From positions 2,285,001 through 2,349,000 of the forward strand of contig NZ_JALJWF010000001.1 in the NCBI RefSeq assembly GCF_024168645.1: a stretch of DNA of 64,000 bases, written 5' to 3'. Shown here one piece after another: positions 32,621 through 34,626 of this stretch. Both the position numbers and the translations under genes were made by a program. Under the pieces are notes generated by a model. That model made no database searches, was not told the origin of the DNA, and was given only the letters and a program-made list of their open reading frames with translations. How positions within the stretch are numbered: the stretch's first letter is position 1; each line of letters opens with the position of its first letter. This DNA is from Pseudomonas sp. GGS8. GTDB taxonomy: Bacteria > Pseudomonadota > Gammaproteobacteria > Pseudomonadales > Pseudomonadaceae.

Positions 32621-32627
32621 CCGGACC

Positions 32628-32778
32628 CTGTGGCGAGGGGGCTTGTCGGAACGCCGCATCGCCCCGTTCGGCTGCGCAGCAGTCGTAAAACCATTGTTCT
32701 CGGTTTACCTGATACAGCTCGGTTGCAGGTTTTGGGGCTGCTTCGCAACCCAACGGGGGCAAGCCCCCTCGCCACAGG
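32628..32778. repeat. REPIN, family 2
   Basis: Inverted units CTGTGGCGAGGGGGCTTG and GGCAAGCCCCCTCGCCACAG flank about 110 bases; the left unit has an insertion (TCGGAACGCCGCATCG) between its halves. It marks the border between the conserved chp cluster and the accessory block to its right. Confidence 0.87.
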
Positions 32779-32789
32779 GGGGTTGTGCG

Positions 32790-33167
32790 CTAAACCCCGG
32801 CCCGAGCCTTCATCTGCAACGACTCATGATGATCCAGCACCCGCTCCACCAACAACTGCACGCCATCCGCCAAACGGCTGAGCGCCAAGGCTACAGAGCG
32901 GCGTGAGCCTTCCACATCGTCCGCGAGGTCAGCAGCAATGGCGCTGATGGACAGCAGGTCTTCGGAGGCATTGGCCAGAAGGGCTTCGGTGTCGATGTCG
33001 GGGGCGACGGTGAAAAGCTGGGATTTACGGCGTTTGGCCGGTTTTTCGTGAGGTGACGGGAAGTAATGGGGGAAGGCGCGGTCGGCGGCTTCCTTCATTT
33101 TTTGTGTTTCGAGGGAGGCTTGGGAATCGGTCCCGGATTCTGGCGGGTTGGGAGTAGCTTTGAACAT
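32790..33167 (-). CDS. DUF6124 family protein
   Basis: This 125-residue protein begins MFKATPNPPESG, the usual start of a small family (DUF6124) found in many copies in fluorescent pseudomonads. The middle contains VAPDIDTEALLANASEDLLSISAIA, followed by a helical C-terminal part. No catalytic motif, signal peptide or membrane helix is seen, and no function is known. The frame stays open for 85 codons upstream, but that stretch is the structured leader and does not resemble protein; the start used has TGGAG 8 bases before it. Confidence 0.85.
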   Translation of the reverse strand: MFKATPNPPESGTDSQASLETQKMKEAADRAFPHYFPSPHEKPAKRRKSQLFTVAPDIDTEALLANASEDLLSISAIAADLADDVEGSRRSVALALSRLADGVQLLVERVLDHHESLQMKARAGV

Positions 33168-33221
33168 TGTGCATCTCCAGTAATGAGTTTCAGCTGCTCC
33201 ATCGGTTCCAAGCGAAGGGGT

Positions 33222-33402
33222 GGCAGCTGTACGCAGGTTGGAACCCGAGGTGGAGAAAACCCGGCAGACCCGAAGGTCTCCCGCGTACAGCCGCCATAAC
33301 GGAATACACACATTAAAGGTGCGCAAGCATACGTCATGAGGGGCGCTTTTGCGCCTTCTACACCTCGGGGTTCCAAACCCGGTCGCTGAGGTTGGCAGCG
33401 AC
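33222..33402 (-). promoter_or_regulatory. Structured leader of the DUF6124 gene: crossing helices, probable pseudoknot
   Basis: Reading the minus strand 5' to 3': a hairpin with a perfect 7-bp stem (33402-33382); arm A (33379-33356); a hairpin GGCGC-AAAA-GCGCC (33355-33342); arm B (33295-33283); a UUCG tetraloop hairpin AGACC-TTCG-GGTCT (33279-33266); arm A' (33257-33236); one base; arm B' (33234-33222). A pairs with A' over 21 base pairs with two bulges and one mismatch. B pairs with B' over 13 base pairs, one a G-U wobble that is only a pair on the minus strand. The arms interleave, so both helices together form an H-type pseudoknot with a 1-base junction, or they are alternatives. The start codon is 55 bases beyond B'. 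Confidence 0.75.
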
Positions 33403-33556
33403 ACACAAACGATAAAGATCAACGCAAAACCGCACCAGTCAGCGGGTTCCGGCGTTGCTGTAGGCAGCGACGCAAGGTTGTGTAGCCTCTCACCGTTCCT
33501 GCGGACAAACTTTTAAACACAAAACCCCAGGCTATCGGACCTCGCCACAAGGGTGG
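33403..33556. other. Gene-free spacer upstream of the DUF6124 leader
   Basis: No coding region was found. The part 33442-33471 contains a sequence similar to the hairpin at 33382-33402 (both with a GCAGCGAC end), suggesting a partial tandem duplication. An AT-rich stretch at 33505-33522 may hold the promoter of the minus-strand leader, but no convincing -35/-10 pair was found. Confidence 0.4.
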
Positions 33557-33609
33557 TTGAAGATTCCCAAAAAGGGACCTATCGTTCCTTTTTTGGGACT
33601 TATCGGTCG
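33557..33609 (+). promoter_or_regulatory. Promoter with two operator-like repeats for the nucleotidyltransferase/HEPN pair
   Basis: TTGAAG at 33557-33562 and TATCGT at 33580-33585, 17 bases apart, form a sigma-70-like promoter. The 15-base sequence GGGACCTATCGTTCC at 33574-33588 recurs as GGGACTTATCGGTCG at 33595-33609, exactly 21 bases later, i.e. on the same face of the helix. The first copy covers the -10 element, so a repressor bound here would block transcription. The winged-helix product of the next gene is the obvious candidate. Confidence 0.55.
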
Positions 33610-33614
33610 TTGCC

Positions 33615-34244
33615 GTGAAAAACCTGTCATTGAGCGAAGCTTTGTTCACCACCACCCAGCAAAAAGTGCTGGGCCTGCTGTTCGGTAAACCCGACCGAAG
33701 TTTTTACGCCAACGAGATCGCCCGCTGGGCTCAAGTGGGTAAAGGCAGCCTCATGCGCGAGCTGGATCGGTTGCAGCGGGCAGGCGTGCTGACCATGACC
33801 CGTCAGGGCAACCAGACCCACTATCAAGCCAATCCCGACTGCCCGATCTATGCCGAACTGCTGGGCATCGCCCGCAAAACCTTTGGCATTGCCGAACCTT
33901 TGCGTCAGGCGCTCCACCCCTTTGCCGAACAGATCATTTGGGCATTTGTGTACGGCTCTATCGCCAAGGATCAGGCAAACGCATCCAGTGACATTGATCT
34001 CATGCTGATCGGTGAAGGCCTGCACTACAGTGAAGTGATGGAGCGGCTCATGCCTATGGAAGAACAACTGGGCCGCACTCTCAACCCGACGCTCTACACC
34101 CCTGAAGACTGGGCCGCAAAACTGGCGGCTGAAAACAGCTTTGTCGTGCGGGTAGTGCAACAGGACAAGATCAACCTGTTGGGTGAAAACCCTTTGGAGT
34201 CCAAGGATGGGCAGCAACGAGAATCTGGAAAACCTGTTACGTAG
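33615..34244 (+). CDS. Winged-helix regulator fused to a MNT-type nucleotidyltransferase
   Basis: This 209-residue protein has an N-terminal winged-helix domain (about residues 10-80: VLGLLFGKPDRSFYANEIAR, then LMRELDRLQRAGVLTMTRQG). A minimal nucleotidyltransferase domain follows with a perfect GSx10DxD signature (Gly-Ser of YGSIAKDQA, then SDIDLMLIG) at about 115-135. It begins with GTG and has no strong ribosome binding site. The next gene, a HEPN-type protein, overlaps it by 38 bases. By analogy with MntA-HepT pairs it is a plausible antitoxin and autoregulator; that is an inference. Confidence 0.8.
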   Translation: MKNLSLSEALFTTTQQKVLGLLFGKPDRSFYANEIARWAQVGKGSLMRELDRLQRAGVLTMTRQGNQTHYQANPDCPIYAELLGIARKTFGIAEPLRQALHPFAEQIIWAFVYGSIAKDQANASSDIDLMLIGEGLHYSEVMERLMPMEEQLGRTLNPTLYTPEDWAAKLAAENSFVVRVVQQDKINLLGENPLESKDGQQRESGKPVT

Positions 34245-34626
34245 CGGTGGACTGAAAGCTGAGCCACCGGATCGCAAGGAGTGCGAAGGGCTGATGCGTT
34301 CGGCTGTGGATCGATTGAAAGACGCGCAAACGTCTTCGCTTTCCTTCGCGAGTCGTTTCGACCTGGCGTACAACGCTGCCCATGCCCTTGCACTGACGGC
34401 TCTTCGCTTGTGCGGCTACCGTTCAGACAAACGCTATCTGGTGTTTCAGTGCCTGGTTCATACCGCTGATATTGGCAAAGTACAGGTTCGGCTATTCGCC
34501 CTGTGTCATGAGCGACGAAACCTGGCGGAGTACGAAGGCTATATGGATGAAGATCCGGCGTTGTTGGCGCAGCTATTGGAAAGCACCGAGCAGCTGCAGA
34601 TGCGCGTGCAGCAGCAGATGACCTGA
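34207..34626 (+). CDS. HEPN-like protein, partner of the nucleotidyltransferase
   Basis: This 139-residue all-helical protein resembles HEPN-domain proteins of the SAV_6107-like type: FDLAYNAAHALALTALRLCGYRS in the middle and CHERRNLAEYEGY toward the end. The segment RLFALCH has an Arg and a His separated by five residues, the general RxxxxxH spacing of HEPN nucleases, followed by a tyrosine-containing EYEGY. Translation starts at the ATG at 34207, inside the end of the preceding gene, so the two proteins are made together. A toxin role is possible but unproven. Confidence 0.7.
   Translation: MGSNENLENLLRSGGLKAEPPDRKECEGLMRSAVDRLKDAQTSSLSFASRFDLAYNAAHALALTALRLCGYRSDKRYLVFQCLVHTADIGKVQVRLFALCHERRNLAEYEGYMDEDPALLAQLLESTEQLQMRVQQQMT

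Follow-up and report, generated by a model that had tools for sequence, protein, structure and literature searches.

A C4-type antisense RNA leader preceding a DUF6124 gene of Pseudomonas sp. GGS8 and its differently coded copies in the genus

The systems closest to the leader described here are known from phages. In the record of phage P1, a1, b1, c4 (77 nt), a2, b2 and icd follow one another in that order, and a2 is annotated as serving the repression of icd ant translation. According to the part of PMC5320573 available, RNase P cuts the phage C4 RNA at the 5' end of its closing stem, the ribosome site is covered in part by b', and the specificity comes from a'; the part of PMC8198154 available states that the full repression of ant requires C4. 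In Acinetobacter baumannii, 21 related C4-like sRNAs have been described, and targets in trans have been proposed for them (PMC5320573, same part). C4 is listed in Proteobacteria and phages (PMC2864571, in part) and has been reviewed (PMC12197685, in part). Two structures published for IsrK, A and B, represent alternative pairings, and a stable processed RNA lies downstream (PMC4825925, in part). In the literature searched, which was covered partly, no report was found on the pairing of C4 with DUF6124 in Pseudomonas or on a dispersed, privately coded set of C4 copies in this genus; the supplement of PMC2864571 may say more.

In the window (the whole stretch of 64,000 nucleotides of Pseudomonas sp. 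GGS8 that was analyzed), a DUF6124 gene on the minus strand is preceded by a structured leader that is read toward it and can pair in alternative ways close to the ribosome binding site. The initial annotation had described two crossing helices, A-A' and B-B', an AAAA hairpin adjoining A, a UUCG-capped hairpin between B and A', and a "third option" for pairing with part of A'. Each of these elements is present on the minus strand. Both helices were also recovered by an inverted-repeat search, which gave a 17-nt repeat at the closing stem (33280-33296 x 33221-33237, 88% complementary) and a 14-nt core of A-A' (33356-33369 x 33244-33257, 93% complementary) located within the longer bulged helix, and the "third option" at 33211-33204 turned out to be the downstream target a2. 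The opinion that there was no named element of this kind was wrong, since the Rfam search that had been recommended gives two covariance models above their curated thresholds: the C4 antisense RNA (RF01695) at 33301-33216 of the minus strand (70.1 bits, gathering 45), covering the full model (1-87), and c4-a1b1 (RF03163) at 33415-33362 of the same strand (49.1 bits, gathering 46.7). The leader that looked new now has a name: it is a C4 family RNA, and the copy, not the family, is new. The main features are as follows.

33409-33437, minus strand: promoter-like pair TGGTGC (33437-33432) and TATCGT (33414-33409), 17 nt apart, read from the column pattern
33362-33415, minus strand: c4-a1b1, upstream target of C4 (RF03163, Rfam), with a stem-loop at 33402-33382
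33356-33376, minus strand: a1b1 target proper, i.e., arm A, with the a1 core TTGGAACC at 33376-33369 (from the sequence)
33342-33355, minus strand: GGCGC-AAAA-GCGCC hairpin without a T run after it (from the sequence)
33216-33301, minus strand: C4 antisense RNA (RF01695; Rfam and fold), predicted mature RNA 33295-33219
33222-33295, minus strand: C4 closing stem of 16 pairs, 33295-33280 x 33237-33222 (fold and covariation)
33251-33258, minus strand: antisense loop b', with the loop at 33258-33252 and the core TCTCCA at 33256-33251 (fold)
33238-33245, minus strand: antisense segment a' (GGTTCCAA), of which 33244-33238 is unpaired in the C4 fold (fold and covariation)
33204-33211, minus strand: downstream target a2 (TTGGAACC; pairing with a' and covariation)
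33174-33179, minus strand: candidate for the downstream target b2 (TGGAGA), which overlaps GGAG, the Shine-Dalgarno sequence (six pairs with b')
32790-33167, minus strand: the putatively regulated gene, encoding a DUF6124 protein of 125 aa (PF19619, 92.3 bits, cut-off 27)

B-B' is part of the C4 closing stem, A is a1b1, and A' holds b' and a'. The crossing-helix pattern arises because the antisense RNA, closed by B-B', adjoins its own target, paired in A-A'; before processing, the transcript may form a pseudoknot in cis. Position 33295 corresponds to the GG of the closing stem, the trailing ACC is also present, and the predicted mature RNA of 77 nt has a C4 fold of -44.6 kcal/mol. The chance of the pairings in the window was judged against 5000 mononucleotide shuffles. 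The longest run between a1b1 and a'b' (9) was equalled in 24 of them and that between a' and a2 (8) in 14, while the run of 6 between b' and b2 at the Shine-Dalgarno was equalled in 328 and is therefore not significant alone. Nested co-folding of C4 with the mRNA, by a method which cannot represent loop pairing, gave a net energy of 0.0 kcal/mol with a2b2 and -1.9 kcal/mol with a1b1.

Of the modes of regulation initially suggested, the one by RNA agrees with these matches to an antisense family and its target. The leader is very probably a self-antisense leader of the C4 type blocking the translation of the DUF6124 gene, as in P1. The transcript would start near 33402 and take in a1b1 and C4 before the DUF6124 gene. 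RNase P would excise C4 at the GG of the closing stem, as the P1/P7 and Acinetobacter cases suggest, and the processed C4 would expose a' and b', free to pair with a2 and with the Shine-Dalgarno b2 of its own mRNA; this pairing would block DUF6124 translation. In the uncut transcript, a1b1 could hold a'b' and thus limit the formation or the action of C4.

Upstream of the leader, the last base of TATCGT (33409) precedes the a1 hairpin by 7 nt. The same arrangement, TTG, 17 nt and TAnnnT ending 7 nt upstream of the a1 stem, was observed at 69 of the 81 C4 loci with a recognizable stem, where the search rewarded the a1 stem and not the promoter columns (90, 62, and 67% for TTG; 74, 81, and 86% for TA...T). 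A generic promoter scan made no call at 33437-33409 in the window.

With the uncut leader of the window, the free nested fold, which includes A-A', is ahead of the C4 fold by 10.8-12.3 kcal/mol depending on the stretch folded. Over 30 loci, the lead amounts to about 1 kcal/mol (median) and to nothing in 9 of the 30; which pairs replace C4 in the free fold was counted in the window only. Since the free fold of the window keeps A-A' and a case of this kind has been published for IsrK (PMC4825925), a1b1 is a plausible brake on C4. The same observations could be read the other way round: as in IsrK-like activation, the full transcript would be silent owing to the cis pairing of a1b1 with a'b', and a short a1b1 RNA would free it in trans, the upstream part being the regulator and C4 a by-product. 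We regard this possibility as rather unlikely. The large lead of the free fold in the window (10.8 or 12.3 kcal/mol) and the alternative pairings A and B of IsrK (PMC4825925, in part) speak in its favor, as does a weak match of the isrK model (RF01394) at 33402-33336; this match reaches 25.8 bits, however, which is below the gathering threshold of 50. In addition, the GGCGC-AAAA-GCGCC hairpin which follows a1b1 has no T run and was not called as a terminator, and the lead of the free fold dwindles over the 30 loci.

The same genome contains 35 C4 matches, at least 34 of which are above the cut-off, this number being a lower bound because 150 of the 1791 first-look candidates were scored. It also contains 31 a1b1 matches (13 above the cut-off), 26 DUF6124 matches, and four DUF3077 matches. 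Thirty of the 35 C4 loci, those with an ATG located 47-56 nt past C4 and a frame of at least 40 aa, were tested. Pfam identified DUF6124 in 19 of the 30 frames, DUF3077 in one, and Bro-N in one, and at least nine gave no match. Some DUF6124 genes (L064-L068) have no C4 match alongside, two of which retain an a1b1 match upstream.

Judging from their sequences, most of the tested copies carry a matching code of their own. The 30 loci have 30 different b' loops and 19 different a' 7-mers. A perfect 7-nt complement of a' occurs within 22 nt after C4 at 21 of the 30 loci versus none of 834 combinations with a non-identical a', and upstream, at a1, at 23 of the 30 versus 6 of the 834. At least seven contiguous pairs of b' in the 28 nt before the start were found at 19 of the 30 loci versus 8 of 870 mismatched pairings. 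When contiguous matches were scored, the cognate antisense segment was the best or tied for the best for its target in 21 (b) and 20 (a) of the 30 cases, and the means (20.47 for b and 17.30 for a) exceeded the maxima reached over 20,000 permutations (15.10 and 14.27). Against a longer upstream region, the cognate was the best in only 6 (b') and 8 (a') of the 30 cases, and no permutation attained the cognate mean; likewise, when ranked by duplex energy, the cognate came first for its a2 target in none of the 30 cases, and none of the 20,000 permutations attained its mean. The b2-side matches of six or more cover positions -14 to -7 in all 26 of the own loci and in 43 of the 44 other loci having such a match, and the place of b2 in the window agrees with this.

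The covariation check recommended in the initial annotation was made on the 30 paralogous leaders, the structure being taken from one member, and both of these choices favor high counts. It bore out B-B' (98.1% of cells paired, with two-sided change in 7 of the 16 pairs) and the a half of A-A' (80.3%), but not the b half, which is unsupported in the register of the window (43.9%) and in which b1 aligns poorly. The second C4 hairpin was paired in 96.0% of cells and the third, in the register of the window, in 50.6%. Between a' and a1, both partners had changed in 54 cells (a count that none of 500 shuffles reached), the signal being less marked on two of the five measures (two-sided pairs, 29/500; further pair types, 78/500); between a' and a2, both had changed in 60 cells (0/500), with 7/500 for pairs and 1/500 for types. 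Slid controls dropped well below the a1 and a2 registers. The predicted pairing of a' with a2 is supported by this covariation, and that of b' with b2 is supported mainly by the other loci.

For a second set, a single locus was taken from each of 60 genomes among the 98 other Pseudomonas genomes, and 51 of these loci were usable; the 60 were picked from the best-scoring loci listed and are thus biased toward typical C4. With unchanged scoring, the cognate was the best or tied for the best in 44 (b') and 49 (a') of the 51 cases. A perfect 7-nt match of a' at a2 was present in 50 of the 51 loci versus 8 of 2166 mismatched pairings, and seven or more pairs of b' in 39 of the 51 versus 62 of 2438. 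Many codes are common to several species in this set, which has 14 different a' 7-mers and 31 different b' loops. The frames behind C4 matched DUF6124 (19), Bro-N (5), and DUF3077 (4), with at least 23 giving no match. In both sets taken together, where the first frame is shorter than 70 aa, the ATG of the second frame overlaps its stop by four bases at 19 of the 23 loci, which resembles the arrangement of icd and ant1 in P1. L032, L101, L110, and similar loci carry C4 followed by a conserved frame of about 52 aa, with this overlap with the next frame.

C4 was found in 92 of the 99 Pseudomonas genomes, in numbers ranging from 0 to at least 39 copies per genome (scoring stopped at 39), and DUF6124 in 78; their copy numbers are correlated (Spearman 0.89). 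DUF6124 was found in none of 368 genomes of other Gammaproteobacteria, and C4 was found outside Pseudomonas in 22 of 338 other genomes. Nineteen of these non-Pseudomonas C4 loci were read: 17 were correctly placed, and 15 of the 17 had a perfect a'-a2 match. Four of the nine proteins scanned behind them were phage-type regulators above the cut-off (AntA twice, Rha, and Bro-N). For this reason, the C4 leader seems to have been ancestrally tied to antirepressor genes, and Pseudomonas would have attached it to DUF6124.

No paper was found under the name DUF6124 in the literature searched, and the part of PMC9630843 available mentions one DUF3077 pseudogene and nothing more. When the profiles of DUF6124 and DUF3077 are compared, they match (probability 94.5, E 7.6e-8). 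The chpC site was surveyed in 30 species (best 30 of 59 genomes, 3.4 kb read in each). C4 with a close DUF6124 was present on the opposite strand in four of the 30 species, a different C4 and DUF copy on the same strand in six, another such copy farther away in two, and a DUF without an over-threshold C4 in two, and neither C4 nor DUF was present within the 3.4 kb read in 16. Among the named relatives (best 80 of 372 found), 69 carry C4. In the 29 chpC-adjacent leaders with C4 among them, the a' code varies from species to species, with a matching a2 in 24. The a'-a2 match is weaker over all 69 C4-bearing relatives, with 37 of the 69 by a fixed 7-mer and 46 of the 69 (vs. 10.5%) by any 7-mer.

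Six chpC-adjacent leaders of the named relatives have no C4 by the finder used. In L205, the lost stretch begins inside a1 or directly behind it and ends directly behind a2, which fits a deletion between these direct repeats; in L203 and L213, the junctions are elsewhere. In L229, the start and the ribosome site are missing along with most of C4. Because some copies have kept the gene after losing C4, these cases would speak against a strongly toxic DUF6124 product. One might also wonder whether the cassettes are decaying phage remnants without any present function, in view of these repeated losses of C4, the apparently broken reading frame of L041, and the C4 copies of L053, L057, and L058, which have no fitting gene behind them. 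This is improbable: codes are matched in many species, and DUF6124 at the chpC site is under purifying selection, with dN/dS values of 0.11-0.31 (10 pairs of five copies, including the C4-less L073).

Several other features were noted around the leader and the chpC site. Directly after the DUF6124 gene, window positions 32626-32779 contain a perfect inverted repeat of 20 nt that looks REP-like to the eye, and similar repeats occupy the same intergenic site in other species (L087 and L091, for example). On the plus strand, 33615-34244 encodes a protein with a nucleotidyltransferase domain (Polbeta above the cut-off) and a weak winged-helix match, and overlaps a frame of 147 aa without a Pfam match (34183-34626); we take the two to be perhaps an MNT/HEPN-like pair. 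Inverted repeats at 33565-33598 resemble an operator of the 33615-34244 gene and are found again in L088 and L098. Another species has a TwoAYGGAY RNA close to its chpC site (RF01731, 57.2 bits, L088:1113-1232). Farther along the window, an ordinary SAH riboswitch (RF01057, 66.4 bits) occupies 56660-56562 of the minus strand, and the frame directly after it reads as adenosylhomocysteinase by eye.

The C4 RNAs might alternatively act mainly in trans on other genes or incoming phages, as proposed for the C4-like family of Acinetobacter (21 sRNAs with proposed trans targets, PMC5320573, in part), but cognate cis targets at most of the tested loci and the few cross-matches between different codes among them make this a poor prospect. 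Since the a'/b' code varies among the tested copies, each of the copies, at least 34 in number, is likely to repress chiefly the gene that follows it. It is extremely improbable that the leader, as its crossing-helix geometry might suggest, is a riboswitch binding a ligand or a genuine H-type pseudoknot with no relation to antisense regulation: no finding supports a ligand switch, the leader belongs to a named antisense family, and a', unlike a ligand pocket, varies freely while matching its targets.

Whether many Pseudomonas chromosomes hold dozens of dispersed and privately coded C4 cassettes that come and go like small mobile units and in which an immunity leader of phage type drives DUF6124 (with the related DUF3077), a family seen only in Pseudomonas here, is a proposal to which we give about even weight. 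Since matching a', a1, a2 and b', b2 must persist in each copy, the set would drift into channels which hardly cross-react. If this were true, the direct repeats a1 and a2 would allow C4 to be deleted, leaving a copy permanently unrepressed. These many naturally varied antisense-target pairs could serve as a test bed for the evolution of RNA specificity, and the C4 pairing provides a handle on DUF6124. Chromosomal C4 RNAs with cis targets in Pseudomonas also bear on the role of multi-copy C4-like RNAs in bacteria.

Among the known systems, the seqA - CI RNA - seqC arrangement of phage P4 resembles the window in that an antisense RNA is flanked by upstream and downstream copies of its target; the CI RNA is described as acting by transcription termination, and the likeness is one of description (PMC4825925, in part). 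The isrK-orf45-anrP leader of prophage Gifsy-1 (RF01394) shares with the window an upstream segment complementary to a downstream one, two folds and, according to the part of PMC4825925 available, a processed RNA placed downstream like C4, and differs from it in that no terminator was called after a1b1 in the window. The Group 1 C4-like sRNAs of Acinetobacter baumannii resemble the Pseudomonas set in their many chromosomal copies and variable a'/b' loops, but trans targets have been proposed there, as we know it from the description (PMC5320573, in part), whereas most of the tested Pseudomonas copies have cis targets. The C4 of P1 and P7 has the same order as the window (a1-b1-C4-a2-b2-gene), a closing stem with a UUCG hairpin, a2 close behind C4, and b2, a candidate element in the window, at the ribosome site; in P1, c4 is 77 nt long and lies 50 nt from the start codon, versus a predicted 77 nt and 51 nt in the window. 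What differs is the downstream gene, icd-ant in the phages and a chromosomal DUF6124 here, and the presence of at least 34 over-threshold copies of C4 in a single chromosome.
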